Shown: positions 1,737 to 21,744 of the stretch, piece by piece
Position numbering within the stretch: position 1 is the first letter of the stretch
How the letters are laid out: every line of letters begins with the position of its first letter
Origin: Yersinia ruckeri ATCC 29473
GTDB taxonomy: Bacteria; Pseudomonadota; Gammaproteobacteria; Enterobacterales; Enterobacteriaceae
Length of the DNA: 33,546 nucleotides
Direction of reading: 5' to 3'
Assembly: GCF_000754815.1 (NCBI RefSeq)
Contig: NZ_KN150747.1
Location: forward strand, 1-33,546
Notes under the pieces: model-generated
The model's input: the letters and a program-made list of their open reading frames with translations, nothing else
The model's database searches: none
What the model was told of the DNA's origin: nothing
Position numbers and translations under genes: made by a program

Positions 1737-2138
1737 TCATTGGATAAAAGCTTTAGCAAAAGAGGGATCGAACGGCCCCTCTTTCACTTCAAGCAACAAA
1801 GCGCGCTCGGAAATGCAGGTGACGCTATGAATATCGCCGGGTGCCAGTTCTACAATCATGGCCTCATGAGCTGGGCCAAAATGCTGCTCCTGCCTCACCT
1901 TACCGGCTTCATCATGCAGGCAGACCTGCACTTCTCCCTGCAGCACAATAAACATTTCCCATTGATGGGGAAGCTCGTGAAAATGCGCCTCAACATAGCT
2001 CCCTTCCACCATCGCGATAAGAAGACGCTGTACTTTTTCCTGATGGGAAGCATGTAATAGAAGGTGAGTCCGTTTTCTATCCGCACTGCGCGCCTGAACG
2101 AACAACTCTTCTAAAACCATATTATCAATCAATCGCAT
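1737..2138 (-). CDS. wbuC: WbuC, cupin-fold protein of O-antigen locus
   Basis: A 133-residue single-domain cupin and the last gene of the O-antigen operon. ATG at 2138 lies inside the end of wbuB (10-nt overlap). Motif 1 is visible as EAHFHELPHQWEMFIVLQGE (residues ~51-70, two metal-type histidines and a glutamate) and motif 2 as VELAPGDIHSVTC. The same gene follows wbuB in several E. coli fnlABC-wbuB-wbuC O-antigen clusters, which is how I recognise it. It carries the metal-ligand pattern of a cupin, but its reaction is not established. A sugar-modifying or regulatory role is guesswork. Confidence 0.88.
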   Translation of the reverse strand: MRLIDNMVLEELFVQARSADRKRTHLLLHASHQEKVQRLLIAMVEGSYVEAHFHELPHQWEMFIVLQGEVQVCLHDEAGKVRQEQHFGPAHEAMIVELAPGDIHSVTCISERALLLEVKEGPFDPSFAKAFIQ

Positions 2139-3334
2139 GCCATACTCTCCAGCCGGTCTTCAATCAGGCGAGCTGCCGTTCCGACCGAAAACTCCGCCTC
2201 CAGCAAACGATATGCACACTCCCCCATCACCCGACGGCGAGTCTTATCCAGTAAACTGATTGCCGAGTTCAATAAGTGCTCATCATCACCATTCACGTGG
2301 ATAAAACCAGCATTGTTTTTATTTACAATATCCATCAAGTCATTATTTGCATTGATGCTACCGAGTATCGGAAGATGCTGAACCATATAACCCAAAAGTT
2401 TGCCGGGGAAATTATGCGCAGTGTGGTTTGCAGCCAAGGAAAATAATCCTACGTCAACTTCGGTTAGAATTTGCTTAAACTCCGCCTGAGAAACCGAAGG
2501 TAGATAAGTGAAGTTTTTAAGTCTCCAAGATGCAGCCAACTGTTTTATTAGCGAAACCTCATCGCCCTGGCCAACAAACAGGAAATGCACATTCTCGTAA
2601 GCGTGCATATTTCTCGCTAGGCGCATTAAGTTCGCCATATCCTGCGCGTAGCCAATATTACCACCATAGAAAAAAATAACTTTCCCTTCCAGCCCCAGTT
2701 TTTCACGGCAAGAAATACGTTGACTTTCTGGTTCTGTCGCAATCAGACTGGCCCAATTGCGTAAAACTTCACAGCGGTAACCGTTGTGTTGATACCTGAA
2801 AACATCAAGATTACGCTCAGACATCAATCCAATGTGCTCGGCCTGACGGTAAGAGTTTCGTTCAAAGTAACGGAAATATCGTTCAATAATCGAACCCTGA
2901 CGCATCATACCCGCATCGACCACCCATTGCGGAAAAAGATCACGCAGCACCAGATAGGCGGGACAACGACATCTTTTTTTAATGCGTGCAACCAACCCTC
3001 CCCAAAAAATAGAAGGGGAATAGTACACAATCCCCTGAAACATCTCAGGGGAAATGCGCTGCCCGACGGCGCGCCATGCGCGAACAGAAAGCATCGATTC
3101 GTTAAATGCCCGGATAACTTTGCTGATATTCTTGGTTGGGCCGCTGCGGAAGCTCCATACTCTTACACCATCAATATCAGTTTCCTGAAAGAGGCTTTCC
3201 TGATGGGTATCCGGGGTAATAACCGTTATTTTATGCCCCCGGGAAAGAAGTTCCAGCGCCAGTTCGTGAAACATTTTAGCTCCGACACGGGTGCTGTGCG
3301 GCAAATAATCATCAATGATCAACACAAGATGCAT
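2129..3334 (-). CDS. wbuB: WbuB, L-fucosamine glycosyltransferase (GT4)
   Basis: A cytoplasmic GT4-type transferase of 401 residues. I start it at ATG 3334, which shares one base with the fnlC stop (TAATG). The longer reading from a TTG at 3349 adds five residues that the family lacks. The N-terminus MHLVLIIDDYLPHSTRVGAK is the donor-domain start. The C-terminal half has GGNIGYAQDMANL, FLFVGQGDEV and FPGKLLGYMVQHLPILG, typical of GT-B retaining enzymes. In E. coli the homologue is assigned to adding alpha-L-FucNAc to the WecA-made GlcNAc-PP-undecaprenol. With wbuXYZ present the donor or product here is probably the amidino form, L-FucNAm (inference). Confidence 0.9.
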   Translation of the reverse strand: MHLVLIIDDYLPHSTRVGAKMFHELALELLSRGHKITVITPDTHQESLFQETDIDGVRVWSFRSGPTKNISKVIRAFNESMLSVRAWRAVGQRISPEMFQGIVYYSPSIFWGGLVARIKKRCRCPAYLVLRDLFPQWVVDAGMMRQGSIIERYFRYFERNSYRQAEHIGLMSERNLDVFRYQHNGYRCEVLRNWASLIATEPESQRISCREKLGLEGKVIFFYGGNIGYAQDMANLMRLARNMHAYENVHFLFVGQGDEVSLIKQLAASWRLKNFTYLPSVSQAEFKQILTEVDVGLFSLAANHTAHNFPGKLLGYMVQHLPILGSINANNDLMDIVNKNNAGFIHVNGDDEHLLNSAISLLDKTRRRVMGECAYRLLEAEFSVGTAARLIEDRLESMACD

Positions 3335-4464
3335 TAGTACTGTTTCCAAACAACTCGCTTAACATAATCGGTATAGGAGTGAATAATACGTACAATCTTA
3401 TCCGATACATTAGGCATACTATAATCGCTTACCTGACGTAAAAGACGCTCATTGCCACGCGGCTGGCTTTCCAGTATAGCTAGCCCCTGCACGACTCGCT
3501 CCACCTCGAGTCCAACCATCATCACTGACGCCTCTTCAAATCCCTCAGGACGTTCATGTGCTTCGCGTATATTCAGAGCCGGGAAGTTCATAATAGAAGA
3601 TTCTTCAGTAATCGTTCCGCTATCCGATAAGACGGCCCGGGCATTTTTCTGTAAGTGGTTATAATCATGGAAACCCAGCGGTTTTAACAGTTGGATGTTC
3701 GGATGAAACTCGATACCAGCCGCATTAATACGGTTGCGGGTGCGTGGGTGTGTCGAGATGATGACCGGCAGGTCATACCTCTCGGCAACCGTATTGAGAA
3801 TAGTGGCTAATTTCGCCAGTTGCTTTGGCGAATCCACATTTTCTTCCCTGTGTGCGCTGACGACAAAGAACTCCCCCGGCTTCAGCGAAAGGCGGGTCAA
3901 CACATCTGATGCGTCAATTTGCGGCATATAGTGAGTTAAGACTTCATACATCGGGCTACCCGTTTTGATAACCCGGTCAGCAGGAATACCTTCAGCCAAC
4001 AGATAATCTCGGGCTATCGTGCTGTAGGTCAGATTGACATCCGCCGTATGGTCAACAATACGCCTGTTGGTTTCTTCAGGAACGCGCTGGTCAAAACAGC
4101 GGTTCCCCGCTTCCATATGGAAGATAGGTATCTTGCGACGCTTTGCCGGGATAGCGGAAATGCAGGAGTTGGTATCGCCAAGAATTAACATGGCATCCGG
4201 TTGCACGATTTCCAGAACATCGTCTACTTTAATAATGATCTGGCCAATGGTTTGTGCCGCGTTCTTACCAGCAGCATCAAGGAAATAGTCTGGCTTACGT
4301 ACGCCAAGATCGCTGAAAAAAACTTCATTAAGTTCATAGTCGTAATTTTGACCGGTATGAACCAAAATATGCTCGCAGTACTCATCAAGGCGAGCCAGCA
4401 CGCGTGACAACCTGATGATTTCAGGACGGGTGCCCACAACGGACATGACTTGTAACTTTTTCAT
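3334..4464 (-). CDS. fnlC: FnlC (WbjD), UDP-L-talose-type 2-epimerase making UDP-L-FucNAc
   Basis: A 376-residue member of the UDP-GlcNAc 2-epimerase (WecB-like) superfamily. Visible signatures are VVGTRPEIIRLSRVL near the N-terminus, HMEAGNRCFDQRVPEE and SAHREENVD in the centre, and SDSGTITEESSIMNFPALN toward the C-terminus. In the WbjB-WbjC-WbjD pathway this enzyme carries out the last C2 epimerisation, giving UDP-N-acetyl-L-fucosamine. Its ATG at 4464 overlaps the fnlB stop by one base and its stop overlaps the wbuB start by one base, so the block is translationally coupled. Full length, no lesions seen. Confidence 0.95.
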   Translation of the reverse strand: MKKLQVMSVVGTRPEIIRLSRVLARLDEYCEHILVHTGQNYDYELNEVFFSDLGVRKPDYFLDAAGKNAAQTIGQIIIKVDDVLEIVQPDAMLILGDTNSCISAIPAKRRKIPIFHMEAGNRCFDQRVPEETNRRIVDHTADVNLTYSTIARDYLLAEGIPADRVIKTGSPMYEVLTHYMPQIDASDVLTRLSLKPGEFFVVSAHREENVDSPKQLAKLATILNTVAERYDLPVIISTHPRTRNRINAAGIEFHPNIQLLKPLGFHDYNHLQKNARAVLSDSGTITEESSIMNFPALNIREAHERPEGFEEASVMMVGLEVERVVQGLAILESQPRGNERLLRQVSDYSMPNVSDKIVRIIHSYTDYVKRVVWKQY

Positions 4465-5567
4465 TACAACGTTCTCGCTATTGTATCCGGTGCTTGCCGA
4501 TCAAAGATCTCATTAGCCCACAACATAACAATCATTTCATCGTTACCAATGTTAGTAATATCATGTGTCCAGCCTGGTACCATTTCAACAATTTTATACT
4601 CATCTGCCGCAACCACCATTTCAAATTTCTCACCGCTGACTACATGTTCAAACTTAAAACGAGCCAGCCCTTTAATAACAAGGAATTTTTCATTCTTAGT
4701 ATGATGGTAGTGGCCGCCGCGAGTAATCCCCGGAAGCGCGGTGAAAAAGGAGAATTGACCAGCATCGGGAGTTTTCAACACCTCACAAAAGACGCCGCGC
4801 GCATCACCGTAGAAAGGAATAGAATAGCTCAACTGTTCCGGTCGGAAGTAGCTCAGCCAGGTTGAATAAAGTGCCCTGACAAACCCTTGCCCAACCGCTT
4901 CAGTAATCAGTGTGTCACGACTCTGTCTGAATTTAAGCAACAGATCCGCAACCTCTCCGACGGTTGTCGAGTATTCTGGCGCCACATACTGCCAACCGCT
5001 CTCAACAGAGCCATCCAGCAGAGAGAGTAATGCCATACAAACATCATCAATATAGACTAACGTTACGGCGGCGCCAGGATCGTTAATGGTTATCGGAATG
5101 TCGTTAATGATGTTATGACAAAAAGTAGCCACAAAGGAGTTATAGTTTGGGCGGCACCACTTGCCGAATACATTCGGAAAACGGTACAGGTAAAATCTAG
5201 CTCCCGTAGCCCTGCCGTAGGCTTCAACGGCTTTCTCGGCCATTGCCTTGCTGACACCATAGGCATTTTCTTTCGTCGCCTGACTGGAAGAACTAAGCAT
5301 CAGCGGAGTTTGCTTATGGTTTTCGCTCAAGATCTCAGTTATTTTCTGGGTCAGGCATGCATTACCGGAAGCAAATTCATTGTCATCTTTCGGGCGATTA
5401 ACGCCCGCCAGATGATAAATAAAGTCTGCTGCCAACAAGCCAGCACGCAGTTCCTCTTCAGACGAATGGCGATCGATTTTAATAACATCATAATCGTCCT
5501 GCTCAGATAAGCGTACACACAGGTTTTTGCCAATAAAACCTTCCGCACCAGTGACAAGTATTTTCAT
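4464..5567 (-). CDS. fnlB: FnlB (WbjC), UDP-sugar reductase/epimerase with C-terminal cupin
   Basis: A two-domain protein. Residues ~1-240 form an extended SDR domain with MKILVTGAEGFIGKNL and an active-site tyrosine-lysine in NAYGVSKAMAEKAVEAYG. The C-terminal third is cupin-like (ITRGGHYHHTKNEKFLVIKG). This architecture is characteristic of WbjC/FnlB, which reduces and epimerises the 4-keto product of FnlA on the way to UDP-L-FucNAc. I favour ATG 5567, which leaves one base after the fnlA stop. ATG at 5576 (three extra residues, overlapping fnlA) is possible. The stop at 4464 overlaps the fnlC start. Confidence 0.95.
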   Translation of the reverse strand: MKILVTGAEGFIGKNLCVRLSEQDDYDVIKIDRHSSEEELRAGLLAADFIYHLAGVNRPKDDNEFASGNACLTQKITEILSENHKQTPLMLSSSSQATKENAYGVSKAMAEKAVEAYGRATGARFYLYRFPNVFGKWCRPNYNSFVATFCHNIINDIPITINDPGAAVTLVYIDDVCMALLSLLDGSVESGWQYVAPEYSTTVGEVADLLLKFRQSRDTLITEAVGQGFVRALYSTWLSYFRPEQLSYSIPFYGDARGVFCEVLKTPDAGQFSFFTALPGITRGGHYHHTKNEKFLVIKGLARFKFEHVVSGEKFEMVVAADEYKIVEMVPGWTHDITNIGNDEMIVMLWANEIFDRQAPDTIARTL

Positions 5568-5568
5568 A

Positions 5569-6603
5569 TCAGGCATCCAGTTCGTAAGGTGTTCCAGAAC
5601 GCAGTGCGCGAATAAATGGCAGCTTCAGAAGCAAGGTTTTCATCCCTTCAACATCGAGGCGCTGCGTATTGTGGGAGTTATAATCGACAACTTCAGAGAT
5701 GCGTGTATCTCCCTGTTCGACGTATTTACCATAGTTCAGATCACGCAAATCCGGAGGTATGCGATAGTAATCGCCCATATCCACAGCGGCAATAATTTCT
5801 TCGCGACTAAGGAGCGCTTCATAGAGTTTCTCGCCGTGACGAGTCCCGATAACATTTACAGCATGCTCGGGCACATTAAGCAGCTCTTTTAATGCCACTG
5901 CCAGCGTTTCAATAGTGGCTGCAGGTGCTTTCTGCACAAAGATATCGCCGTTTGAGCCATGCTCAAACGCATACAGAACGAGATCTACAGCATCTTCCAA
6001 CGTCATCATAAAACGAGTCATGTTGGGGTCGGTGATAGTCAGCGGTTTACCCTCTGTGATTAAATCAACGAACAAGGGAATAACCGAACCACGTGAGGCC
6101 ATCACATTACCATAGCGGGTACCGCAAATAACTGTTTTACTGCTGTCAACATTCCGTGATTTAGCGACCATGATCTTTTCCATCATCGCTTTAGAGATAC
6201 CCATAGCATTAATCGGATAAACAGCCTTGTCAGTACTTAAGCAGACAACGCGCTTAACACCATTGGCTATCGCCGCTTCAAGTACATTTTCTGTACCTAA
6301 TACGTTTGTTTTCACCGCTTCAAGAGGATGAAATTCGCAAGAAGGGACCTGCTTAAATGCTGCCGCATGATAGATAAAGTCCACACCTCGTGCTGCATTC
6401 AGGATACTGGAATAATCACGAACATCGCCGATATAAAACTTTAACTTGGGGCTGTTGTACTTTTTGCGCATATCATCTTGTTTTTTCTCATCGCGCGAAA
6501 AAATACGAATCTCTTTAATATCCGTCGCCAGAAAACGATTCAATACAGCATTTCCGAAAGAACCTGTACCACCCGTAATCAGGAGAATTTTATCTTTAAA
6601 CAT
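5569..6603 (-). CDS. fnlA: FnlA (WbjB), UDP-GlcNAc 4,6-dehydratase/5-epimerase
   Basis: A 344-residue SDR enzyme that commits UDP-D-GlcNAc to the L-fucosamine pathway. The Rossmann motif LLITGGTGSFGNAV is at the N-terminus. The active-site segment STDKAVYPINAMGISK shows the Met-x-x-x-Lys version that replaces Tyr-x-x-x-Lys in inverting 4,6-dehydratases. Three starts are stacked (TTG 6609, ATG 6606, ATG 6603). ATG 6603 has the best spacing from the AAAGGA ribosome site and gives the expected N-terminus MFKDKILLITGG and the family length. It is the first of the fnlABC block and lies 12 bases after the wbuZ stop. Confidence 0.96.
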   Translation of the reverse strand: MFKDKILLITGGTGSFGNAVLNRFLATDIKEIRIFSRDEKKQDDMRKKYNSPKLKFYIGDVRDYSSILNAARGVDFIYHAAAFKQVPSCEFHPLEAVKTNVLGTENVLEAAIANGVKRVVCLSTDKAVYPINAMGISKAMMEKIMVAKSRNVDSSKTVICGTRYGNVMASRGSVIPLFVDLITEGKPLTITDPNMTRFMMTLEDAVDLVLYAFEHGSNGDIFVQKAPAATIETLAVALKELLNVPEHAVNVIGTRHGEKLYEALLSREEIIAAVDMGDYYRIPPDLRDLNYGKYVEQGDTRISEVVDYNSHNTQRLDVEGMKTLLLKLPFIRALRSGTPYELDA

Positions 6604-6615
6604 CATCAATCCTTT

Positions 6616-7410
6616 CTATAAAATCTGTTTTTGCAAGGACGGTAAATAGATCTTGTCCTTCTGCTCCGTTGTTGGGTAATTGATCAATACAGCGCGATAC
6701 TTACCCTTGAAAACAAACAGGCTACCAGCCGCAGCGCCCACAATGCCGCAGTGAGCAATCAGTTCACTGAGATGCTCGTGCGTACCCGCACCGCCTAAAA
6801 AAGTCGTGGGTACATGTAGAATAGACTTCACCTGCCCCGCAAACTCAAGATTATAGCCTTTCATGACACCATCATTATCAACGGAGTTAATAACAATTTC
6901 ACCGGCGCCCGCTTTTTCCATCGCGATGGCTAGTTCCAACGGATCCTGCTTATGGTTTCGAGTGTTATTGATGCTGGTCAGCTCATAACCCTTAGAAAAA
7001 AATCCTTTTTTCTTTCGGACATCCAGTACTGCGACAACACTCTGGCGACCGATGGCCTGCGCCAATTCGGTAATTAATTGTGGGTTATCAATTGCCGCCG
7101 AGCTCAATGAAACTTTCTCAACACCCAAAGAGATAATCCGGGCGGCCTGCTCTGCCGTTTTGATCCCGCCACCATAGCACAAAGGCATACGGCACTCTGC
7201 TGCAAGTTTCTTGATCAGCGCATAGTCAGGCTCACGAGATGTAGCACTGGCATCAATATCCAGTACCATTAGCTCATCGGCCTCTTTCTCATTAAATATT
7301 TTTACCGCATTGATCGGATCGCCAACGTACTTTGGCGAAGTAAAACCGACGGTTTTGACCAGCCCCCCTTTATGGATCAGCAGGCAGGGAATAATGCGAG
7401 GTCTAAGCAT
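6616..7410 (-). CDS. wbuZ: WbuZ, HisF paralogue for amidino-sugar formation
   Basis: A 264-residue TIM-barrel HisF paralogue, started at ATG 7410. The TTG at 7419 adds three unsupported residues, and ATG 7410 overlaps the wbuY stop by 8 nt. It begins MLRPRIIPCLLIHKGGLVKT: position 11, the catalytic Asp of true HisF, is Leu here. Asp130 is kept (VVAVLDVRK) and the phosphate-loop text GEIVINSVDNDG and FLGGAG remain. With WbuY it should form a glutaminase-channel complex supplying ammonia to WbuX. No other histidine gene is nearby. This wbuXYZ trio is known from E. coli O145, where it is assigned to L-FucNAm synthesis, and resembles wbpG-hisH2-hisF2 of Pseudomonas. Confidence 0.92.
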   Translation of the reverse strand: MLRPRIIPCLLIHKGGLVKTVGFTSPKYVGDPINAVKIFNEKEADELMVLDIDASATSREPDYALIKKLAAECRMPLCYGGGIKTAEQAARIISLGVEKVSLSSAAIDNPQLITELAQAIGRQSVVAVLDVRKKKGFFSKGYELTSINNTRNHKQDPLELAIAMEKAGAGEIVINSVDNDGVMKGYNLEFAGQVKSILHVPTTFLGGAGTHEHLSELIAHCGIVGAAAGSLFVFKGKYRAVLINYPTTEQKDKIYLPSLQKQIL

Positions 7411-8029
7411 GGTTACCAATCTCAGAAAAATTCTTTAACAACGTCAATCCGGAGGAGTGACTCTTTTCAGGATGACACTGGATACCAAAAATGTTCTCTC
7501 TGCCAACGATACAGTCAAACTCGAATCCATATTCAGCTGTCGCGATAACGTCGCTTTTGTCCGCGCAGTCAAAGTAATATGAGTGCAAAAAATAGAACTT
7601 CGACTCAGAGATGAAATTGCTCGTCAAGGCAGAATCTGTACGCTGTTTTACATCGTTCCAGCCCATATGCGGCATTGGAAGATGCCGGCTCTGCGGATTA
7701 GACATAAAGCTGCGAACCTGGCCTGGAATCCAGTTGAGTCCGGCCATTGTTCCCTCTTCACTCCCGCTGGCAAGCATTTGCATGCCAACGCAAATGCCGA
7801 TAATGGGAATCTTATCAGCAAGCACTAATTGTTCGACGCTATCGCGTAAACCTGATTGATTAAACAGTGTCATCGCATGATCAAACGCACCGACGCCCGG
7901 CAGAATGAGATGGGTCACTCCCTGCAAAGCCTCCGGAGTCGAGACAGCCTCAGCAGGGATCCCTAATCGTTTAAAAACATTTAGAAAAGCCTGAATATTA
8001 CCTACACCATAATCAATAAGCTTGATCAC
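7403..8029 (-). CDS. wbuY: WbuY, HisH paralogue (class I glutamine amidotransferase)
   Basis: A 208-residue glutaminase subunit. It starts with GTG at 8029 in a GTGA overlap with the wbuX stop. The catalytic triad is intact: Cys80 in IIGICVGMQML, and His186 and Glu188 in FGIQCHPEKS. The N-terminal KLIDYGVGNIQAFLNVFKRLG is the usual HisH start. It should hydrolyse glutamine and pass ammonia through the barrel of WbuZ, as HisH does with HisF. Because WbuZ lacks a key HisF residue, the ammonia most likely serves WbuX amidation of an N-acetyl sugar and not imidazole-glycerol-phosphate synthesis. Confidence 0.93.
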   Translation of the reverse strand: MIKLIDYGVGNIQAFLNVFKRLGIPAEAVSTPEALQGVTHLILPGVGAFDHAMTLFNQSGLRDSVEQLVLADKIPIIGICVGMQMLASGSEEGTMAGLNWIPGQVRSFMSNPQSRHLPMPHMGWNDVKQRTDSALTSNFISESKFYFLHSYYFDCADKSDVIATAEYGFEFDCIVGRENIFGIQCHPEKSHSSGLTLLKNFSEIGNHA

Positions 8030-9159
8030 CGGAAGAACCTCTTTTCCATACCTAACTTACGTAAAATATTGGCTCCAAGACCAATGAGCCAACGTTTATT
8101 TTTATAATCTCGGTAGGTTTTCTTCGGCTGTTCGAATAGCTGCTGCAACTCTTCAACGGTGATACCTAACTTGTGAGCAACATATTCAAATTCCTGCTCT
8201 AGAAAATGCTCGCTCATCTCTGGCTGTGCCAGTCGCTCAAGCGCAGCCTCACGAGTCATCTGTCCAGTCAGAATAAGACTTGAGAAATGGGCTCGGCGCT
8301 TATGGAACCCAAAGCGTCGTGGGAGCCAGTAGTCTTCATAAAAACGTGTAAAGCGCGACTCATGATGTTTGTGCTGGAAACGTTGCCAACCGAATTTTTG
8401 CTCAAGCTCATCTTCCGCATCTTTTTTATTAAAAGGTACCAGATTAAGTGGATGGTGTACCTTCATCCCGAGTATTTTCTGGTAGTAAAGTTTGTACACC
8501 ATGATATCAGTCAGCGGAAAGGTTTCTAACTTTCTGGTACCAAACTGGTTATGGATATCGTTAAACAGTAGTTTGTCGATACCCAAATACCCGCCCCACT
8601 CTTCAGGTTCACGGCAGCATTCTGTAGAAAAATTAGAGCCGGTAATAACATGCTTGACATTATGCTCATGCGCAAATTTGTACAACGCGGAGAAAAAGGC
8701 TGCATCCTGCACCAAATCCTGATCCGGGATCCCGGCTTTCAGGAATGAAAGCTGCAAATCTTTCATCTCTTCCCAGTTAACCACTTCGGTATAAAGTTCA
8801 AGACCTAATCCTTCGATCAGTTTTTCAATATTGCCCACCGCCTGATCGGTATTCCAGCCTGCATCGACATGAAATAGCAATGGTCTCAAGCCCATTTTCT
8901 CTTTCGCAACATAGGCAGCATAAGAACTGTCAAGCCCGCCAGAGAGACCAATAATGCAGTCAAAATCTTTATTTTCGCCTTCTTTTTTGATCGTATCAGC
9001 AAGAGCCATCAGGGCTGCATCATCGACTTTCCAGTTAGGCTTAATATTAGATTCATAATTATGGCAATAGTCACAGCAACCATCAGAATCGAAATGTATA
9101 TTCGGATCTGACGTGTCCATTATGCAGTGGCTACAAATTTTATATTCAGTGGTAGTCAT
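8026..9159 (-). CDS. wbuX: WbuX, N-acetyl sugar amidotransferase (WbpG-like)
   Basis: A 377-residue ATP-PPase. It starts at ATG 9159 (14-nt overlap with the preceding gene). A probable zinc knuckle is formed by C9-x2-C12 and C29-x2-C32, followed by the PP-loop SGGLDSS at residues 73-79, which adenylates the substrate. HVDAGWNTDQA and ITGSNFSTECCREPEEW follow. The family is the N-acetyl sugar amidotransferases (WbpG/PseA type), which convert an N-acetyl into an N-acetimidoyl (acetamidino) group with ammonia from HisH/HisF-like partners. In this operon the expected product is the L-FucNAm form of FucNAc. The nonulosonic acid is an alternative substrate that sequence alone does not exclude. Confidence 0.93.
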   Translation of the reverse strand: MTTTEYKICSHCIMDTSDPNIHFDSDGCCDYCHNYESNIKPNWKVDDAALMALADTIKKEGENKDFDCIIGLSGGLDSSYAAYVAKEKMGLRPLLFHVDAGWNTDQAVGNIEKLIEGLGLELYTEVVNWEEMKDLQLSFLKAGIPDQDLVQDAAFFSALYKFAHEHNVKHVITGSNFSTECCREPEEWGGYLGIDKLLFNDIHNQFGTRKLETFPLTDIMVYKLYYQKILGMKVHHPLNLVPFNKKDAEDELEQKFGWQRFQHKHHESRFTRFYEDYWLPRRFGFHKRRAHFSSLILTGQMTREAALERLAQPEMSEHFLEQEFEYVAHKLGITVEELQQLFEQPKKTYRDYKNKRWLIGLGANILRKLGMEKRFFR

Positions 9160-11660: not shown

Positions 11661-11744
11661 ACATCCTCCTGAGCGATATTTAACAGTACAAATAGTCACT
11701 GACACTTTAATTATCATATCAAAAACTTTTCACACACTTTTCAC

Positions 11745-12983: not shown

Positions 12984-13009
12984 ACAGAAAGGATATGCCA
13001 AATCATTAC

Positions 13010-14473: not shown

Positions 14474-14474
14474 A

Positions 14475-15437
14475 TTAGATAGCAACGCTTTTAATGTTCT
14501 CAATTAGTCCAATTGTAGCAACCGCATCATCCACAAGAATACATTGGTGTGGCCGTTCCGCGATGTACTGAGTAAAATCCCTAAGCATATCCAGATACAT
14601 CCCATTTTTATCGTAGGCAGCGTCGCTGTATAGTATCTCAGTACCTTCAGCCGTATGTAGTAGCACTTGATTGAGTATCAAATCCCACTCAATTCGCCCT
14701 TTTGTCCCAATAAAATCGCAGTGTCGATGGACTTTACGCTGTAAAAAATCCAAATGAATATGGACAACGGCCTGCTGGTTTGTCATCGCAACGACATCGA
14801 CAAGATCCTCAACCTCAATGTCCAGCGTGCCGGAATTGCGGATAATTGCATTATGTACCTGCAACTCTCCCAGCATCCATCTCGCATAATCGAATTCATG
14901 GCTGAGTTCCAGTAATGCCCCGCCACCCAAAAGCTTGCTTGCCGAGACGCTGTCTCTATAATCTTTTGTGGTCCGCCAGTCAGGTAAATACTGACCAATA
15001 GAAATACGGGCATTTAATAATTGGCCTGCAAGTTCTTCTGCCAAGGCCTGCTGTGTTACCCGAGCAGACGGCAGATAGCGCAGACAATAGCCAACGGCAA
15101 GAGGAGTTTTATACTTTCTGCTGGCCTCGAGCAAACATTGAGCATCTTCCAATGAACCAACGATCGGCTTTTCGATTAAGACCGGTATGTTCGCCGCGAT
15201 AAAAGGGATCGCATGTTCAGCATGCTTGGTTGCCGGTGAAGCAATAATAGCCATATCAACAAGACCGATCAGTTGCTCAATCGAGTTGGCTATCTCATCA
15301 CAGTCACTGACAGAACCTGTAATGTTTCTTCCTGAAGCTGAGAGGGCATAGACCTTCGCCTGTGGAAATAGAATCTTCAGATTTCGTCTATGCCTGGTGG
15401 CAATATTTCCAAGTCCGACAACCGCAATATTCTTCAT
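14475..15437 (-). CDS. ptmF: PtmF-like Gfo/Idh/MocA oxidoreductase
   Basis: A 320-residue NAD(P)-dependent oxidoreductase. The N-terminal Rossmann text is NIAVVGLGNIATRHRRNLK, followed by MAIIASPATKHAEHAIPF and the EKP motif in PVLIEKPIVGS, all diagnostic of the Gfo/Idh/MocA fold. A C-terminal domain follows (GGGALLELSHEFDYARWMLGE). It is placed between ptmE and legF as in Campylobacter-like legionaminic acid loci, where PtmF works with PtmA on the route to the GDP-linked glucosamine precursor. ATG 15437 starts two bases after the ptmE stop. The exact reaction is not proven for these homologues. Confidence 0.86.
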   Translation of the reverse strand: MKNIAVVGLGNIATRHRRNLKILFPQAKVYALSASGRNITGSVSDCDEIANSIEQLIGLVDMAIIASPATKHAEHAIPFIAANIPVLIEKPIVGSLEDAQCLLEASRKYKTPLAVGYCLRYLPSARVTQQALAEELAGQLLNARISIGQYLPDWRTTKDYRDSVSASKLLGGGALLELSHEFDYARWMLGELQVHNAIIRNSGTLDIEVEDLVDVVAMTNQQAVVHIHLDFLQRKVHRHCDFIGTKGRIEWDLILNQVLLHTAEGTEILYSDAAYDKNGMYLDMLRDFTQYIAERPHQCILVDDAVATIGLIENIKSVAI

Positions 15438-15439: not shown

Positions 15440-16495
15440 CTACAGCCCCAGTGAGAAAATATCCGCCTGAGCACGCTTGAAATCATCCATGCGGCCAATA
15501 TCCAACCAATACTCATGTATTGGGAACATTAAAATATTGTTATTTTTTTGCATATGCTGTTCGAGCAGAGTTGGCATATCGATATGCTGGTTCTTGGCAA
15601 CGCCCTTGAAAATGGTTGGAGAAATTACGTAGATCCCAGCATTGACAAAGAAATGATGAACTGGTTTCTCCTCCATGGATATAATTCTGCTACCGTCACC
15701 TTTAATCACGCCATATGGGATCTGGTAATCATATTCTCGGACGCACAGCGTGGCATCCGCTTTACTCTCGTTATGGAAGTTTATCAAGCATTCAAAATCG
15801 ACATTTGTAAGAACATCACCGTTCATCATAATAAGCGGCAAATCAGCAGACAATGATTCAGGCAGCAGGCCCAAAGCCCCACCGGTACCTAGAGGCTTAT
15901 CTTCATAGACATAGTGAATTCGGGCATTGAACGCCTCACCATCGCCAAAATAGTCACGAATAACGTCTGGCATGTAATGCGTTGAAATATAGAGATTCCT
16001 GAAGCCAGCTTTGACAAAGCTGCGAATAAGCGTTTCCAGTATCGGCTTATCACCTACTTTTAACATGGGTTTTGGGCAATTATCGGTTAACGGTCGCAAT
16101 CGCGTACCAAAACCTCCTGCCATAATAAAAATGGGATTATCGTACTGTTTATTTTCATTAATAAGTTGAAGAGTCTTCAGACCGACAACCTTTCCATCCT
16201 TCACAACGGGAACCGCAGTGATCCCGGCGGCTGTCATAACTCTGTTTAATTCTTGGGTGGACATTTCACCACCAGCGACAACAGGCGACGTATTCATCAC
16301 CTGCGAAGCATACGCCTGCAGATCAAGACTGTTCAGTAAACCTCTACGGATATCGCCGTCAGTGATTACGCCTAGCAAATGCTGTTCTTTATCCACAACT
16401 AAAGCAATTTTTAGCGCTTCATGGTTAATGACCTCCAGCGCTTTACGTATCGAACTGTCTGGCCCAATCAGCACATTCTGCCATTGATGCGTCAT
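15440..16495 (-). CDS. ptmE: PtmE-like nucleotidyltransferase with N-terminal CBS pair
   Basis: A 351-residue two-domain protein. Residues ~1-118 hold a CBS-domain pair (LLGVITDGDIRRGLL and ITAVPVVKDGKVVGL). Residues ~121-351 are a sugar-phosphate nucleotidyltransferase with IMAGGFGTRLRPLTDNCPKP (125-144), GTGGALGLLPE and IMMNGDVLTNVDFE. This CBS-plus-nucleotidyltransferase layout is that of PtmE from C. jejuni, reported to make GDP-glucosamine for the GDP-linked legionaminic acid pathway. CBS domains often sense adenylates, so allosteric control is plausible. It starts at ATG 16495, 20 bases after legH. The guanylyl specificity is inferred from the family. Confidence 0.9.
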   Translation of the reverse strand: MTHQWQNVLIGPDSSIRKALEVINHEALKIALVVDKEQHLLGVITDGDIRRGLLNSLDLQAYASQVMNTSPVVAGGEMSTQELNRVMTAAGITAVPVVKDGKVVGLKTLQLINENKQYDNPIFIMAGGFGTRLRPLTDNCPKPMLKVGDKPILETLIRSFVKAGFRNLYISTHYMPDVIRDYFGDGEAFNARIHYVYEDKPLGTGGALGLLPESLSADLPLIMMNGDVLTNVDFECLINFHNESKADATLCVREYDYQIPYGVIKGDGSRIISMEEKPVHHFFVNAGIYVISPTIFKGVAKNQHIDMPTLLEQHMQKNNNILMFPIHEYWLDIGRMDDFKRAQADIFSLGL

Positions 16496-16515: not shown

Positions 16516-17151
16516 CTATTTAATTACGGTTTTCACCGCATAGCATCTCTTCCCTGCCCCCAGAGAACTCACCAGTACCGCCCCTGCTGAAACAAAAGCA
16601 CCATCATCAAGATGCACGCCAGGGATAATCGTAGCACCTGCGCCAATAAAGACATTATCGCTAGTTCGGACATCGCCGCACAGGGTTGCCCCTGGTGCGA
16701 TAAAGTTATATGACCCAATATGGCAATCATGCTCAATGGTTGCGGCGGTGTTCACAACTGAATGGGAACCGATGACTGCACCAGGCTGAATAATTGCACG
16801 CGTCAGAATTTGCGCCCCTTTATGGATTACGGCAAAATCCGATACGATTGCATCTTCGGAAATAACCGTCGCGAAACGATAACCCTTACTAAGAAAGTGC
16901 TCATTAACTTTACGGCGCAATGAAGAACCTGGAGTTACTCCAACGCCATTGATTAGCTCAACATCCTCTGCTGCAAAACGCATAATCTCTTCATCGCCAC
17001 GAAGGTGAGGAAGATCAGCCAGACTCACTCGCCCTGAGATATCAGCAGGACTGATAATCGCCAGAATATCCCGGTGCTGCTTTTTTAGAATGCCTACCAG
17101 TACGCTGGCATGTCCCCCACCACCAATAATAATGAGTGGCTTACTACTCAA
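16516..17151 (-). CDS. legH: LegH/NeuD-like sugar N-acyltransferase
   Basis: A 211-residue PglD/NeuD-type acyltransferase. The N-terminal LIIIGGGGHASVLVGIL binds the nucleotide-sugar. The C-terminal half is a left-handed beta-helix of hexapeptide repeats (VIGSHSVVNTAATIEHDCHI, FIAPGATLCG, VFIGAGATIIPG), with a likely catalytic His141 in IEHDCHIG. It should acylate the 4-amino group made by LegC. An unusual acyl group is possible. The only in-frame start is TTG 17151: a TAA lies immediately upstream in frame, a GGGGA ribosome site sits 8 nt before it, and it overlaps the legI stop by 8 nt. The rare start and overlap suggest coupling that lowers its level relative to LegI. Confidence 0.88.
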   Translation of the reverse strand: MSSKPLIIIGGGGHASVLVGILKKQHRDILAIISPADISGRVSLADLPHLRGDEEIMRFAAEDVELINGVGVTPGSSLRRKVNEHFLSKGYRFATVISEDAIVSDFAVIHKGAQILTRAIIQPGAVIGSHSVVNTAATIEHDCHIGSYNFIAPGATLCGDVRTSDNVFIGAGATIIPGVHLDDGAFVSAGAVLVSSLGAGKRCYAVKTVIK

Positions 17152-18217
17152 GGATTAAATCCCCAGCGGCATAACTTTTGCTGGATGTTTTACCGAGTAA
17201 TTCCCAATATTGATAGGGTGACATTCCTTTCCCTGGCCGTTTTATTGTTAAATTAGCGTCATCGAACGCTTCACCTTTAGCAATCACTTTCGCCGCAACC
17301 AGACTTTTACGTGCAATAGTTTTATTCTTCACCTCTGACACCGTGGGTGATTTGATGCTGCCGCCTAATGCAATATTAACCTGCCGCACAGCGCGTATCA
17401 TCGCGTTCAGTTCACCAGGTTCTAGCGATGCTTTATGATCCGGACCGTCCATGTTCTTATCGAGCGTAAAGTGTTTTTCAATCACTACCGCGCCTCGGGC
17501 AACAGCAGCAATGGGAATGACAATCCCTTCACTATGATCAGAATAACCTACGGGTAAATCAAACGAGCTGCGCAGCGTATCCATTACACGCAGATTAATT
17601 TCATCTATCGGCGCAGGATATTCAGTCGTGCAATGCAGAATACTTACTTTTTCCTTTAATGCTTTTTGACCCGCATCTGAGGCATAAGCTTCCTCAAAAG
17701 CTTCACGACCAGGCGCAGCCTCTTTTGATGCTGTATAGCCAAAAGCAATAACGCCGAGTGCGCCTTCAATTTCTGCCAATGTTGCCATACCTGTTGATAC
17801 GATGATATCGCAGCCTGTTCGCGCATGTTCAAGCACTAATGGCGCATTTGTCAATTCACCGGAGGGTAGCTTCAGACGCTTAATACCCAGATCGTTAACC
17901 AGAAAATTCAGGCTCTCTGAATCAAACGCGGTAGACAAAAATTCGATCCCGAGCTCTTCACAGTGTTTTACCAGTGCGTGATGAGTTTCCCATGAGAGCT
18001 CAAGCCTGCTGAGCATGGCCAACTGTGATTCTTGTTTTTTGGTGTTTGCCAGTTGGTACTCTGCCTGCTCTGCATCAGCAGTAACTAGGTTCTTCGCCTT
18101 AAAAGTCTGAAATTTAACAATATCCGCGCCGGCTTTATACGCCACATCCACCAGCTTAAATGCCAGCTTTTCATCGCCGTTATGGTTAACTCCGGCTTCA
18201 GCAATAATCAGCGTCAT
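17144..18217 (-). CDS. legI: LegI-like nonulosonate synthase (NeuB family)
   Basis: A 357-residue NeuB-family synthase that condenses phosphoenolpyruvate with a six-carbon amino sugar to give the nine-carbon acid. It begins LIIAEAGVNHNGDEKLAFKL. The barrel carries DIVKFQTFKAKNLVT, IKRLKLPSGELTNAPLVLEH, VGYSDHSEG and EKHFTLDKNMDGPDHKASLE. Residues ~290-357 are the C-terminal antifreeze-like SAF domain (ARKSLVAAKVIAKGEAFD). The neighbouring LegB/LegC/PtmE set favours legionaminic acid over Neu5Ac, since a sialic acid route would need neither dehydratase nor aminotransferase. ATG 18217 is six bases after the legG stop. Confidence 0.94.
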   Translation of the reverse strand: MTLIIAEAGVNHNGDEKLAFKLVDVAYKAGADIVKFQTFKAKNLVTADAEQAEYQLANTKKQESQLAMLSRLELSWETHHALVKHCEELGIEFLSTAFDSESLNFLVNDLGIKRLKLPSGELTNAPLVLEHARTGCDIIVSTGMATLAEIEGALGVIAFGYTASKEAAPGREAFEEAYASDAGQKALKEKVSILHCTTEYPAPIDEINLRVMDTLRSSFDLPVGYSDHSEGIVIPIAAVARGAVVIEKHFTLDKNMDGPDHKASLEPGELNAMIRAVRQVNIALGGSIKSPTVSEVKNKTIARKSLVAAKVIAKGEAFDDANLTIKRPGKGMSPYQYWELLGKTSSKSYAAGDLILE

Positions 18218-18223
18218 ATCAGG

Positions 18224-19390
18224 TCACTCAATGTCATAAAATATCTTAGCAGGAACAAACTCGAGGGATTTAATCATCTTAATGATTCGTGCACTCGCGT
18301 TGCCCTGCCCGTATGGGTTGTAAATAACTTCCCCCTCAGTTTTGTACTCACGTGCCAGCGCCTTCTGAATAGTTTTTACTATTGTCTTACTCTCCGCTGG
18401 ACAATTAAGCACGCTCTTTGCAGCCAGCCTCCCTTTCTGCCTCTCTCCAATATTGACCGTCGGCACGTCAAAAGCCGGAGCCTCAATAATACCGCTGGAT
18501 GAGTTGCCAATAACAGCTGCAGCATGTTTAACTGCACTTAAATACCGAACCTGCCCCAGAGAGGGGATAGCCAGAACTCTTGAGGCATGTTGGCTGGCGT
18601 AGTTTTCCAGCATGGGAATAATCTTCCGCCCACCATCATCCGCATTCGGCCAAGTGAGAATGACCTGATGCTCAGGGAACGAATCCAATGCGTCGAGCAA
18701 TGCCTGGAAACTGGCTTCAGGCGACTCATTTCCCAAGGTGACCGGATGATAGGTCACAACAACATATGGTTTTTGAAGGGGAAAGTTGAGTGATGATGCC
18801 AGTTCAAGAACCGTCATAAAGGTTCCGCGTCTTAGATGATCTAGCCCAATAGCACCCACGTTCTCCACCCTGCTAGGCGCTTCACCGAGTTGAATCACCC
18901 GTTGGCGATACTCTTCAGTTGAGGTGCCATGGAGGTAACTGAGTTTAGTTATGGCATGGCGAATCGCATCATCATAAGCCCCTTCGGTAATTTCCCCTCC
19001 GTGTAAATGCAAAACGGGAATACGTAGGATCATAGCCGTTTGCGCAGCGGCCAGCGCTTCGAAACGATCACCTAATAGCACCAATAAATCCGGTTTAAGT
19101 CGCGATAACGCATCCGCGAATCCCAGGACACCCAGCCCCATACTTTTTGCAGTGCCGACGGCGGTATCGGATGAAAGCAATATTTCTATTTTTTCATCAA
19201 TGATAAAACCATCGTCGGCGATCTGCTGCCAGGTAAGTCCGAACTCGGGAGAGAGGTGCATACCGCTGACAAGAAGTTGCAATTTGAGCTGGCTATCGCT
19301 TTGTATATCTTTCAACAACCAGTACAGCAAGCCATATTCTGCTCGCGTGCCGGTAAATACAGCGACCTTTTTTATAGCCTGCGATATCAT
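18224..19390 (-). CDS. legG: LegG-like hydrolysing 2-epimerase (NeuC family)
   Basis: A 388-residue NeuC-family enzyme that removes the nucleotide and inverts C2, releasing the 2,4-diamino-type mannose derivative used by LegI. Signatures are VAVFTGTRAEYGLLYWLLKD at the N-terminus, VLHLHGGEITEGAYDDAIRH, VVTYHPVTLGNE and GNSSSGIIEAPAFDVPTVNI. ATG 19390 overlaps the legC stop in ATGA. A NeuC homologue alone would suggest sialic acid, but here it sits directly between legC and legI, which points to the legionaminic series. Full length, no lesion seen. Confidence 0.93.
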   Translation of the reverse strand: MISQAIKKVAVFTGTRAEYGLLYWLLKDIQSDSQLKLQLLVSGMHLSPEFGLTWQQIADDGFIIDEKIEILLSSDTAVGTAKSMGLGVLGFADALSRLKPDLLVLLGDRFEALAAAQTAMILRIPVLHLHGGEITEGAYDDAIRHAITKLSYLHGTSTEEYRQRVIQLGEAPSRVENVGAIGLDHLRRGTFMTVLELASSLNFPLQKPYVVVTYHPVTLGNESPEASFQALLDALDSFPEHQVILTWPNADDGGRKIIPMLENYASQHASRVLAIPSLGQVRYLSAVKHAAAVIGNSSSGIIEAPAFDVPTVNIGERQKGRLAAKSVLNCPAESKTIVKTIQKALAREYKTEGEVIYNPYGQGNASARIIKMIKSLEFVPAKIFYDIE

Positions 19391-20538
19391 GACAAGAAGG
19401 CAGTCGGAGAGCTTGGTAGGTTAACCAGCCGGCTTTCAATATATTCTGAATGGCGTAAGTCATCCCGCATAGCCCCGCTGAACATTGGCAGGCGATGCAT
19501 GAGTTTCCAGATAGGTCTGGCCATGACTTTAGCTGAATTCATATGTGACAGCAGCTCCTCTCTGGCTTCAGCCTCTTCACAAATGACAGCGTTTAGCCAA
19601 TAGTTAGATTTACCATAGGCGGGCTCCTTAACAAACTGGAACTGCGACCCGGCAAAAAATGATTCGTAACTCATAGCGAGACGGCGTTTTTGCTCTAGGA
19701 ACAGCTCAAGGCGCTCGATCTGCGCGCAACCCAACGCCGCATTTAAATTCGGCATACGGTAATTAAACCCTGGCTCATCATGGTAAAACTCATAAGGATG
19801 CGGAACCTTCGCCGTAGTAGTAACATGTTTTGCACGAACACCAGCCTCTGGAGTTTTACATAGCACCATACCACCACCACCAGTAGTGATAATCTTATTA
19901 CCGTTAAAGCTCAACGCACCATACTCACCGAGTGTGCCTGTATGCTGATCTTTATACCAGGAGCCAAGGCTTTCGGCAGCATCTTCGATCAGCGCAATCT
20001 GCCATTTTTGAGAAACGGCAATCAGTTCGTCCAGTTCTACCGGATGACCAAAGGTGTGCATGGGGACGACTGCGCGGATTGACTGACGCGTAACTTTATG
20101 TACGCATCCACCTTCAACACGGTCTGCATGCTCCGTAAGCCAGGCATCCAGCGCCACCGGACACAACCCTAAACTGACAGGCGAAACATCCACAAAAACA
20201 GGCTCTGCGCCCAAATGAAATAGTGCATTACAGGTCGCTACGAAGGTCAGCGCCTGAGTAATTACCAGATCATTGCGCGTTACCCCTGCAAGGAACAAGG
20301 CAGCACTGAGCGCTGCAGTTCCGTTTACCGTTGCTACAGCACGCGGAGAACCGGTAAAAATTTCCACCTTACGTTCAAAGTCGTCAACAAACTTACCCAC
20401 GCTTGAAACAAACGTACTTTTGATGGTATCGAGAACATAGGCTTGCTCATTGCCATCAAAAACTGGCGCATGGAGTGGAATAAACTCACTGGTTTTATAT
20501 ACGTCTCGGACAAATTCTACAATTGAATCCATTTTCAT
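19387..20538 (-). CDS. legC: LegC-like PLP-dependent sugar 4-aminotransferase
   Basis: A 383-residue DegT/DnrJ/EryC1-family aminotransferase. The PLP lysine is Lys215 in ALSFNGNKIITTGGGGMV. The upstream IALIEDAAESLGS (Asp186) and VNGTAALSAALFLAG are typical of the family. It should transfer an amino group to the 4-keto sugar made by LegB, giving the 4-amino-4,6-dideoxy intermediate that LegH then acylates. It starts at ATG 20538, 15 bases after the legB stop, and its own stop overlaps the legG start. The N-terminal FIPLHAPVFDGNEQAYVLD is shared with LegC proteins as I recall them. Confidence 0.93.
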   Translation of the reverse strand: MKMDSIVEFVRDVYKTSEFIPLHAPVFDGNEQAYVLDTIKSTFVSSVGKFVDDFERKVEIFTGSPRAVATVNGTAALSAALFLAGVTRNDLVITQALTFVATCNALFHLGAEPVFVDVSPVSLGLCPVALDAWLTEHADRVEGGCVHKVTRQSIRAVVPMHTFGHPVELDELIAVSQKWQIALIEDAAESLGSWYKDQHTGTLGEYGALSFNGNKIITTGGGGMVLCKTPEAGVRAKHVTTTAKVPHPYEFYHDEPGFNYRMPNLNAALGCAQIERLELFLEQKRRLAMSYESFFAGSQFQFVKEPAYGKSNYWLNAVICEEAEAREELLSHMNSAKVMARPIWKLMHRLPMFSGAMRDDLRHSEYIESRLVNLPSSPTAFLS

Positions 20539-20553
20539 GCCGGCATGCCTTTA

Positions 20554-21744
20554 TTACATTTTACTGTCCAGATACTTCCCAGTTTCTTTGTGACAAAAAT
20601 CAGGAATCATCTCAAAAAACAATTTAACGATATCATTTTTGGTCCACTCAAGCGCAGTTGTCATGCGCATAATTTCTTTTTCGAAGTGTTCCAGTCGCGA
20701 CGGATCATAATCAGGTTCATTTTGTATGATACCTAAATTATCAAAGCGCTCCATATCGAGGATTTCTTTCGAAGTATAAAACTCCTCAAAATCTTTTTCA
20801 CCGGTCGTGTCGCTTGACGTAAACAGGCAAGGCCACTGTCCCTGTGCAGGAAGCGTTTTTGCAAGTTCACGGGCCTCATCTTCTGTTTGACACAGATATG
20901 GCTGATAACCACGCTGCCTGAGGTAACGTTCAGCAATATCAGCAAAAGTAATTAAGTGTAGGCTTTCGCTAAGCTTGGGAAAGAATATGTCACGGTTCTC
21001 ACCAAATATACAGGACATCAGACACAGTTCACCCGACTCCTGGGGTGTGACGAAATAACGCTTGATATCATTAGGTGCAACAAGAGGCTGTTGTTTGCTC
21101 AGGCGCTGTTCGAAGCCATGTAGTAAGGAACCATCAGAAAAAGCAACATTAGCAAAGCGCGCGGTAGAGATATCTATTTTTTCACTATTCCGCATCAGAA
21201 ACATTTCCATAATACGCTTTGATGCACCCATCATATTTACTGGGTTCGCTGCTTTATCAGTCGATACGCAAAAATATTTTTTCACACCTGTCTCGAACGA
21301 TTGTTCAATAGTTTTATTAGTATTAAGGATATTAACTTCAATCATTCGCATCAGCGTAAAGGGATCTTTTTCGCTGCGCACATGCTTCAACGCGGATAAA
21401 TTGAGCACATAATCATACTGACCATCAGCTTTAATAAAGGCATCATATTCTAGAGAGCCTATATCAAGTGCAAACGTCTGAAAGTCACCCAAAATATAAC
21501 CAAACTGGCTGCGAATATCACGCACCAACTCGACCATATTATTTTCACTAATATCTATAACGTGTAATTTCTTGGGATTACGTTTGAAAATTTCTTTAGT
21601 GACAGCTTGGCCAATTGATCCGGCTCCACCTAATACTAAAAAACGTGATTCAGAAACGATGCTGGCCAACTCATTTTTATTTTTGGCAAGATCCTGAGTG
21701 AACAGTGTCTTGTTGCGACCAATAAGAGATAATATATTGTTCAT
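20554..21744 (-). CDS. legB: LegB-like NDP-GlcNAc 4,6-dehydratase; first gene of O-antigen operon
   Basis: A 396-residue dehydratase of the polysaccharide-biosynthesis (CapD/FlaA1-like) SDR group. It has the Rossmann motif FLVLGGAGSIGQAV (~35-48), and the active-site segment VSTDKAANPVNMMGASKRIM with Met-x3-Lys as in other 4,6-dehydratases. The C-terminal ~100 residues extend beyond the catalytic core, as in LegB. It makes the 4-keto-6-deoxy intermediate for LegC. With PtmE in the operon the natural substrate is probably GDP-GlcNAc, though UDP-GlcNAc is possible. ATG 21744 has an upstream GAAGAG. It is promoter-proximal, about 100 nt after the ops element. Confidence 0.92.
   Translation of the reverse strand: MNNILSLIGRNKTLFTQDLAKNKNELASIVSESRFLVLGGAGSIGQAVTKEIFKRNPKKLHVIDISENNMVELVRDIRSQFGYILGDFQTFALDIGSLEYDAFIKADGQYDYVLNLSALKHVRSEKDPFTLMRMIEVNILNTNKTIEQSFETGVKKYFCVSTDKAANPVNMMGASKRIMEMFLMRNSEKIDISTARFANVAFSDGSLLHGFEQRLSKQQPLVAPNDIKRYFVTPQESGELCLMSCIFGENRDIFFPKLSESLHLITFADIAERYLRQRGYQPYLCQTEDEARELAKTLPAQGQWPCLFTSSDTTGEKDFEEFYTSKEILDMERFDNLGIIQNEPDYDPSRLEHFEKEIMRMTTALEWTKNDIVKLFFEMIPDFCHKETGKYLDSKM

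Follow-up and report, generated by a model that had tools for sequence, protein, structure and literature searches.

An O-antigen operon of Yersinia ruckeri predicted to combine FucNAm with 8-epilegionaminic acid

The O1 O-antigen operon

The window analyzed here is a stretch of 33,546 nucleotides (NZ_KN150747.1, positions 1 to 33,546) with which the larger contig of the two-contig, 3.77 Mb genome of Yersinia ruckeri ATCC 29473 begins. A 15-kb piece of the second contig is 100% identical to Y. ruckeri plasmids across 99% of its length, in agreement with this host. It carries an operon of 20 intact open genes, all on the minus strand, that runs from 21744 to 1737 with intergenic gaps of -29 to +27 nucleotides. 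The locus is already described: papers from 2016-2017 present it as the Y. ruckeri serotype O1 O-antigen or “legionaminic acid” cluster. Judging from gene content and from comparison with related loci, we consider it probable that this is a JUMPstart-led, Wzx/Wzy-dependent O1 O-antigen operon whose products would make the acetamidino-fucosamine FucNAm and, by way of the gfo and sdr genes, 8-epilegionaminate.

An earlier note on this DNA had placed leg, fnl and wbu genes in one operon, and all of the genes it named are present on the minus strand with their reading frames open. The range that it gave, 2129..21744, identifies the same operon but is too short, leaving out wbuC (1737-2138) and the JUMPstart leader (21847-21885). 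Families were called with NCBIfam models at their curated cut-offs, Pfam, PDB relatives and Rfam, and the features from the leader onward are as follows.

21847..21885, minus strand: JUMPstart RNA with an ops-like element, the operon leader (Rfam RF01707, 47.8 bits, gathering threshold 35)
20554..21744, minus strand: 4,6-dehydratase, a functional stand-in for LegB (PF02719, Polysacc_synt_2; best PDB relative 3pvz)
19387..20538, minus strand: legC aminotransferase (TIGR04181, 518.7 bits, cut-off 420)
18224..19390, minus strand: legG hydrolyzing 2-epimerase (TIGR03568, 480.6 bits, cut-off 235.9)
17144..18217, minus strand: legI nonulosonic acid synthase (TIGR03569, 492.4 bits, cut-off 399.65)
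16516..17151, minus strand: legH, NeuD-type N-acyltransferase (TIGR03570, 183.5 bits, cut-off 160.8)
15440..16495, minus strand: ptmE, CBS-nucleotidyltransferase predicted to make GDP-N-acetylglucosamine (GDP-GlcNAc) (PF00571 and PF00483)
14475..15437, minus strand: gfo, Gfo/Idh/MocA oxidoreductase, ElaA-like, labeled “ptmF”; proposed half of an 8-epimerizing pair (PF01408)
13787..14503, minus strand: legF, CMP-nonulosonate synthetase of a gfo/SDR-linked clade, ElaB-like (PF02348)
13010..13774, minus strand: sdr, short-chain dehydrogenase (SDR), ElaC-like, labeled “ptmA”; proposed other half of the 8-epimerizing pair (PF13561)
11745..13001, minus strand: wzx flippase (PF01943; 47% identity to O145 wzx)
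10386..11717, minus strand: wzy polymerase (position and relatives; TIGR04370 weak, 18.4 bits, cut-off 40)
9146..10384, minus strand: orphan protein of 412 amino acids, proposed nonulosonic acid transferase (location directly before wbuX; motifs)
8026..9159, minus strand: wbuX amidotransferase (TIGR03573, 297.4 bits, cut-off 203.2; 80% to O145)
7403..8029, minus strand: wbuY, HisH-like glutaminase (TIGR01855, 211.6 bits, cut-off 105.4)
6616..7419, minus strand: wbuZ, HisF2-like (NF038364, 371.1 bits, cut-off 310)
5569..6609, minus strand: fnlA (TIGR04130, 738.1 bits, cut-off 730)
4464..5576, minus strand: fnlB (NF047837, 549 bits, cut-off 500)
3334..4464, minus strand: fnlC, WecB-type 2-epimerase (TIGR00236, 216.1 bits, cut-off 210.15; 87% to O108 fnlC)
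2129..3349, minus strand: glycosyltransferase of family GT4, proposed transferase for L-N-acetylfucosamine (L-FucNAc) or FucNAm (PF00534; 63-65% to the genes that come after fnlC in O145 and O108)
1737..2138, minus strand: wbuC cupin, last gene of the operon (TIGR04366, 137.5 bits, cut-off 42; 62% to O145)

Products scoring above NCBIfam cut-offs include FnlA, the NF047837 fnlB-type reductase, the WecB-type FnlC, AglZ/HisF2 (WbuZ), HisH (WbuY) and WbuX, and also LegC, NeuC, NeuB and the NeuD-type LegH; legI is the single NeuB match across the genome. Wzy is 46% identical to a protein of Aeromonas veronii (L039) and 32% to that of Pseudomonas aeruginosa PA7, and the GT4 enzyme is one that we take to be WbuB-like. 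Both wzx and wzy are co-directional with the sugar-nucleotide genes and stand behind a JUMPstart element, the arrangement of a Wzx/Wzy-dependent O-antigen operon. Elsewhere in the genome a PF00953 match adjoins a Wzz match (535553 and 536488), which are taken as wecA and its neighbor, and another Wzz match lies at 1713700. We regard chance as not an issue for the operon, because it consists of 20 contiguous genes with mostly strong family matches and has collinear relatives.

The ops-like element of the leader, GGCGGTAGCGT at 21848-21858, is the sole exact match, and three other sites match with one mismatch where 1.2 are expected. This leader would place the operon under RfaH control. No sigma-70-type promoter match was found between 21700 and 22400, and the operon promoter may therefore lie beyond or inside the JUMPstart element. 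About 175 bp upstream of that element, an IS3-type transposase pair (HTH_Tnp_1, rve; 22060-23216) occupies the opposite strand.

Identity of the nonulosonic acid

The earlier note read the nine genes that open the operon as a full CMP-legionaminate set, including legB and ptmA. LegC, LegG and LegI of the Campylobacter-type pathway are present, while neither a TIGR04180 LegB nor an NF050062 PtmA appears above its cut-off. The gene called legB does encode a dehydratase, with 3pvz as its nearest solved relative, but the LegB model gives no match to it at E 0.001. The “ptmA” label does not hold, since the SDR scores 199.5 bits against a PtmA cut-off of 350 and passes a general oxidoreductase model (341.7 bits, cut-off 255). 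The catalytic residues of both oxidoreductases are conserved: S143, Y166 and K170 of the SDR (87 rows) and the EKP motif and H180 of Gfo (76 rows) are each kept in 97% or more of the rows aligned.

Comparison with Escherichia coli clusters bears on the product of this cassette. Types O61 and O108, assigned like O161 from annotated wzx names, contain the whole nine-gene cassette, and O108 also has fnlABC and GT4; identities to the window for O61 and O108 are 66/64% for sdr, 70/70% for legF and 49% / 60-61% for gfo. They differ in having other wzx, wzy and transferase genes, and no wbuXYZ in the stretches examined (that of O108 ends inside GT4). The clusters of O161 and of strain NT1F31, the latter known from genes alone, share the dehydratase (77/82%), legC, legG, legI and ptmE with the window, and the window's dehydratase is 77-85% identical to its counterparts in all four clusters. 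However, gfo and sdr have no match in the O161 and NT1F31 clusters, whose legF genes are only 35/30% identical to that of the window. O61 is reported to contain 8-epilegionaminic acid, as does O108 by a title in the reference list of the same source (PMC3628348), whereas a table in PMC10609480 gives O161 as Leg5NAc7NR. The occurrence of the gfo-legF-sdr block in the 8-epi clusters, and the absence of gfo and sdr from the legionaminic one, argue against calling the window's cassette a full CMP-legionaminate set.

A similar division is described for Acinetobacter baumannii, where lgaABCDEFG is assigned to legionaminic acid and lgaABCDEF/elaABC to its 8-epimer (PMC9676051). From gene order, elaABC would correspond to gfo, legF and sdr. 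Like the window, the lgaABCDEF/elaABC module joins a nonulosonic acid cassette to a block with a putative oxidoreductase and is reported for 8-epilegionaminic acid; it differs in belonging to a capsule locus. In the window the gfo-cytidylyltransferase-SDR block likewise follows lga/leg genes and carries a LegF of the block-linked clade. Among 249 genomes of the family of locus L077 (Moraxellaceae), five have the SDR at E 1e-50. Two of these show an lga/ela-like order that ends in gfo-legF-sdr. Their block genes are 58/67/69% identical to those of the window but their legI only 43%, from which it seems that the block has had a separate history. No matches to wbuXYZ or fnl were found in these two stretches. 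The remaining three are L077 itself, which has the block, and L134 and L135, which are of an aminotransferase kind described below.

The block was then followed in two samples. In the first, drawn by SDR and comprising the best 80 of 227 relatives, 75 of 80 named loci have gfo, legF and sdr in this order; the five not flagged are L056, L081, L085 (where the stretch ends early), L107 (where the order is present and went unflagged by the script) and L110. The second was drawn by LegC from 369 genomes of the class, of which 27, including that of the window, have LegC above the family cut-off, at 28 places. With gfo called at at least 50 bits and sdr at at least 90, in stretches that may miss distant genes, the 27 places besides the window divide into eight with gfo and sdr together, one with sdr alone, none with gfo alone and 18 with neither (Fisher p 4e-6, or 8e-6 when two contigs that end early, both among the 18, are left out).

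Phylogenetic trees were built from 51 rows: the window, 32 of 79 block loci (14 hand-picked and 18 random) and all 18 loci initially scored as having neither gene. On the LegF tree, the distribution of the block requires two changes, or one if L022 is relabeled (its gfo is weak, at 88 bits, and its stretch ends inside legF). The LegI tree, built for the same loci, requires seven, four of them forced by well-supported branches, with the relabeling of L022 not included. Both counts are below those of shuffles, so that LegI is also clustered by block, though less than LegF. The LegF of the window falls inside the block-linked clade with support of 99/96, in a tree whose bootstrap is not fully settled and whose long branches blur single placements.

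These comparisons suggest that the nonulosonic acid is 8-epilegionaminic acid, the C8 epimer of legionaminic acid, and the genes known as “ptmF-legF-ptmA” are more likely a gfo-cytidylyltransferase-SDR block that marks 8-epilegionaminic clusters. According to the earlier note, the published O1 O antigen reportedly contains an 8-epi-legionaminic acid derivative, which agrees with the block.

We think it unlikely, but worth weighing, that the product is instead plain legionaminic acid, with gfo acting as PtmF and sdr as PtmA to help supply GlcN and GDP-GlcNAc. The gene names and order would then be those of ptmE-ptmF-legF-ptmA, which we take to be the Campylobacter arrangement. Y. ruckeri papers call the cluster legionaminic, and PtmA has been placed in the first segment of CMP-legionaminate synthesis, that of precursor supply (PMC4481668). 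Yet if the block only helped to supply precursors, it would be hard to see why it carries its own LegF clade, and the SDR of the window lies below the PtmA cut-off. The O161 cluster, which makes legionaminic acid without gfo and sdr, the O61 and O108 clusters, which have both, and the lga/ela modules also speak against this explanation.

Besides the published placement of PtmA, several points weigh against 8-epilegionaminic acid as the product. The E. coli contrast sets two 8-epi types against one legionaminic type, and further genes also set O161 and NT1F31 apart from the window, so that it is no single-gene comparison. The two Moraxellaceae genomes with an lga-like order are known from genes alone, and PA7 has an acid that we only presume to be the 8-epimer. 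In the LegC-drawn sample the bit-score thresholds were chosen after the scores had been seen, and only five of the eight positives have gfo, legF and sdr in order; of the other three, L021 and L023 belong to the aminotransferase kind, and L120 has no legF recognized between gfo and sdr. The orphan transferase candidate belongs to no recognized family. The O1 structure of 1994 reportedly contains GlcNAc, FucNAm and a 4-hydroxybutyryl-bearing acid, and no gene for such an acyl group was recognized. LegH is the most divergent enzyme of the cassette, which would fit another acyl donor: its median identity, in 24 of the 25 loci L037-L059, O61 and O108, is 48%, while Gfo has 54% and the remaining seven enzymes have 64-81%. 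The proposed pathway would put any hydroxybutyryl group on N7, by way of LegH. Finally, the Campylobacter ptmF-legF-ptmA block is related, yet its reported product is legionaminic acid and not the 8-epimer. A table in PMC4481668 gives Campylobacter coli PtmA, PtmF and LegF as 36, 46 and 31% identical to their Plesiomonas relatives.

Two other cassettes were encountered in these comparisons. That of E. coli NT1F31 (L005, 12774-21973), which is of the legionaminic type without gfo and sdr, is found near sslE/pppA and not at galF/gnd; it lies between IS5 copies and includes a GT52 gene. In Paraglaciecola (L056, 7597-10759), two SDRs and a divergent Gfo (PF01408) follow another type of legF, and this cassette perhaps makes a different nonulosonic acid.

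The amidinated sugar and the shared backbone

The gene order of E. coli O145 is neuD-B-A-C, wzx, wzy, an orphan gene for 418 amino acids, wbuX, wbuY, wbuZ, fnlA, fnlB, fnlC, GT4 and wbuC. The window matches this order from wzx to wbuC but has nine genes for a legionaminic-type acid where O145 has the neuDBAC cassette for N-acetylneuraminic acid (Neu5Ac), in line with the earlier note, which saw a legionaminic pathway in place of the sialic acid of O145. Identities to O145 are 80% for WbuX, 73% for WbuZ, 63% for GT4, 62% for WbuC, 47% for Wzx and 28% for the orphan protein. P. aeruginosa PA7 (L074) is collinear with the window from the dehydratase to fnlC, a span that takes in gfo-legF-sdr, wbuXYZ and the orphan transferase. 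It differs in having a TIGR04180 LegB in place of the window's dehydratase, and the GT4 and wbuC genes of the window are unmatched in the PA7 stretch examined.

The orphan protein at 9146-10384 has no Pfam, NCBIfam or PDB match, and a profile search of PDB sequences was empty up to E 1. Because O145, PA7 and four other loci encode a homologue immediately ahead of wbuX, it is probably the nonulosonic acid transferase. Its motifs are N-E-x-x-I-D, DRWA, QHG, KPHP and S-T, and the last two resemble what we take to be sialyltransferase motifs.

The wbuXYZ genes of the window lie beside fnlABC, and their WbuX belongs to a set that is linked to fnl. This close set comprises 11 loci whose WbuX is 67-81% identical and covers 99% or more of the query; eight of the loci, O145 included, have fnl genes (counted at more than 45% identity; the stretches of the other three perhaps end too soon). 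A distant set of 16 loci (18 matches) reaches at most 34% identity, mostly over partial length, and only one of them (L046) has fnlABC; the association of WbuX clade with fnl is significant (Fisher p 6e-4). FucNAm, with the amidine on FucNAc, is thus the better reading and most likely correct, since the WbuX of the window groups with O145 in the fnl-linked set. Distant WbuX, WbuY and WbuZ homologues do occur beside leg cassettes without fnl genes, and WbuXYZ could in principle amidinate the nonulosonic acid (Leg5Am type) rather than FucNAc; given how far the window's WbuX stands from that distant set, we consider this improbable.

A close WbuX is also encoded in ten of the best 80 SDR-drawn loci, and in seven of these the stretch examined also includes one or more fnl genes. 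The combination of genes for a legionaminic-type acid with those for FucNAm is recurrent rather than special. The nonulosonic acid cassette is exchanged as a unit before one wzx-wzy-wbu-fnl backbone, with Neu5Ac in O145 and a legionaminic-type acid here and in PA7.

Proposed pathway and C8 inversion

In the pathway that we propose, whose reactions, step order, 8-epimerization and linkages are all predicted from the genes, a WecA-family enzyme encoded elsewhere in the genome would place GlcNAc phosphate on the lipid carrier. FnlABC would make UDP-L-FucNAc, the GT4 enzyme would add L-FucNAc, and WbuXYZ would convert its N-acetyl group to the N-acetimidoyl group of FucNAm. PtmE would supply GDP-GlcNAc, from which the dehydratase, LegC, LegH, LegG and LegI would form a legionaminic-type acid. 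Gfo and SDR, an NAD(P)-dependent oxidoreductase pair, may then invert C8 by way of a ketone, after which the block's LegF would yield CMP-8-epilegionaminate. The orphan protein would add this acid, Wzx would export the presumed trisaccharide repeat unit, and Wzy would polymerize it. Given their chemistry, the two predicted sugars are expected to carry opposite charges, which would make the polymer zwitterionic.

We favor gfo and sdr as the 8-epimerizing pair because an oxidizing and a reducing enzyme kept together are what epimerization through a ketone needs. A precedent, established by nuclear magnetic resonance, is an SDR acting with a cytidylyltransferase-aldo-keto-reductase fusion to convert pseudaminic to 8-epipseudaminic acid (PMC12053666). 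The fact that LegF differs with the block suggests that it sees the epimerized acid, which would place the inversion before CMP activation. It is very unlikely that the 8-epi configuration arises instead from C5 inversion on the hexose by the dehydratase, an explanation first considered because the “legB” is not LegB and has as its best NCBIfam models the 5-epimerizing FnlA and PseB, both far below cut-off, and then dropped since dehydratases of the same type occur in O161 as well as in O61 and O108, PA7 combines the block with a true LegB, and the two A. baumannii modules share lgaA (PMC9676051).

More tentatively, gfo, legF and sdr might form a portable C8-editing module, in which SDR would generate an 8-keto acid, Gfo would re-reduce it from the other face and the dedicated LegF would activate the product. 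Clusters with a LegF of this clade, many of them annotated as legionaminic and, judged by LegF identity, perhaps including the Plesiomonas flagellar cluster, would then make 8-epilegionaminic acid, and a variant in Vibrio methylphosphonaticus (L081) might yield an 8-amino sugar. L081 has a class-III aminotransferase where Gfo is expected, and no Gfo was detected in the stretch examined; amination of the keto intermediate would explain this enzyme, for which a side-chain role is equally possible.

Nonulosonic acid cassettes with a gene of the same SDR family and a class-III aminotransferase gene are found at the following places.

L081, 7868-10762
L023, 12866-15778
L134, 8205-11046
L135
L110, 6365-10771
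L021, 13835-16217

All but L021 also include CN_hydrolase. In L023 and L134 the aminotransferase is accompanied by a Gfo-type gene, which weakens the proposal of an editing module and of an 8-amino product. A phage search with an EpaB-like SDR gave ten records, all below 34% identity; in one of the two from Acinetobacter, the SDR stands among Rieske and dioxygenase-type genes and not beside a cytidylyltransferase.

Neighboring features

Just past wbuC, positions 3-1297 encode a DUF4942 protein and a Gp49/HTH toxin-antitoxin-like pair, giving the wbuC side a mobile-island flavor. At the right end of the window, 5S and 23S rRNA genes occupy 32384-33546 on the minus strand. Plasmid searches with the cluster as query returned three and four records, covering at most 9% of it.

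Published descriptions and implications

In PMC5320707 a flippase-dependent O-antigen cluster of Y. ruckeri is described as 20 genes that are flanked by gltP and a tetR-like gene and are lost in serotype O2. PMC5552943 lists genes specific to O1 as legionaminic acid biosynthesis, the first being a “dehydratase/C-5-epimerase”, and PMC10174560 refers to the acid as a component of sialic acid type. The window agrees with the published cluster in organism, in its 20 genes, in a gltP-type gene at 25768-27090 and in the order dehydratase, aminotransferase, 2-epimerase, synthase, acetyltransferase, guanylyltransferase; it differs in that the tetR-like gene falls outside it. The available parts of PMC5320707 and PMC5552943 name legionaminic acid and mention neither FucNAm nor 8-epimerization; “fucosamine” and “wbu” occur 0 times in PMC5552943 and “acetamidino” 0 times in PMC5320707.

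The three-gene block, which can be read from a genome, would provide a testable rule for separating 8-epilegionaminic from legionaminic clusters, a distinction that mass alone cannot make. The “legionaminic acid” cluster for the Plesiomonas flagellum is a case in point: its LegF is 70% identical to Elg7 of E. coli, it includes PtmF and PtmA, and mass spectrometry of its sugar is described (PMC4481668). By the block rule, this sugar would be the 8-epimer.

For Y. ruckeri, a role of the O antigen in vaccine protection is credited to Welch and LaPatra 2016 (PMC5981175, PMC5320707). According to such papers, type-specific protection in vaccinated salmonids depends on the O antigen, and virulent strains are associated with serotype O1. 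Correct naming of the O1 sugars therefore matters for typing and vaccine work.

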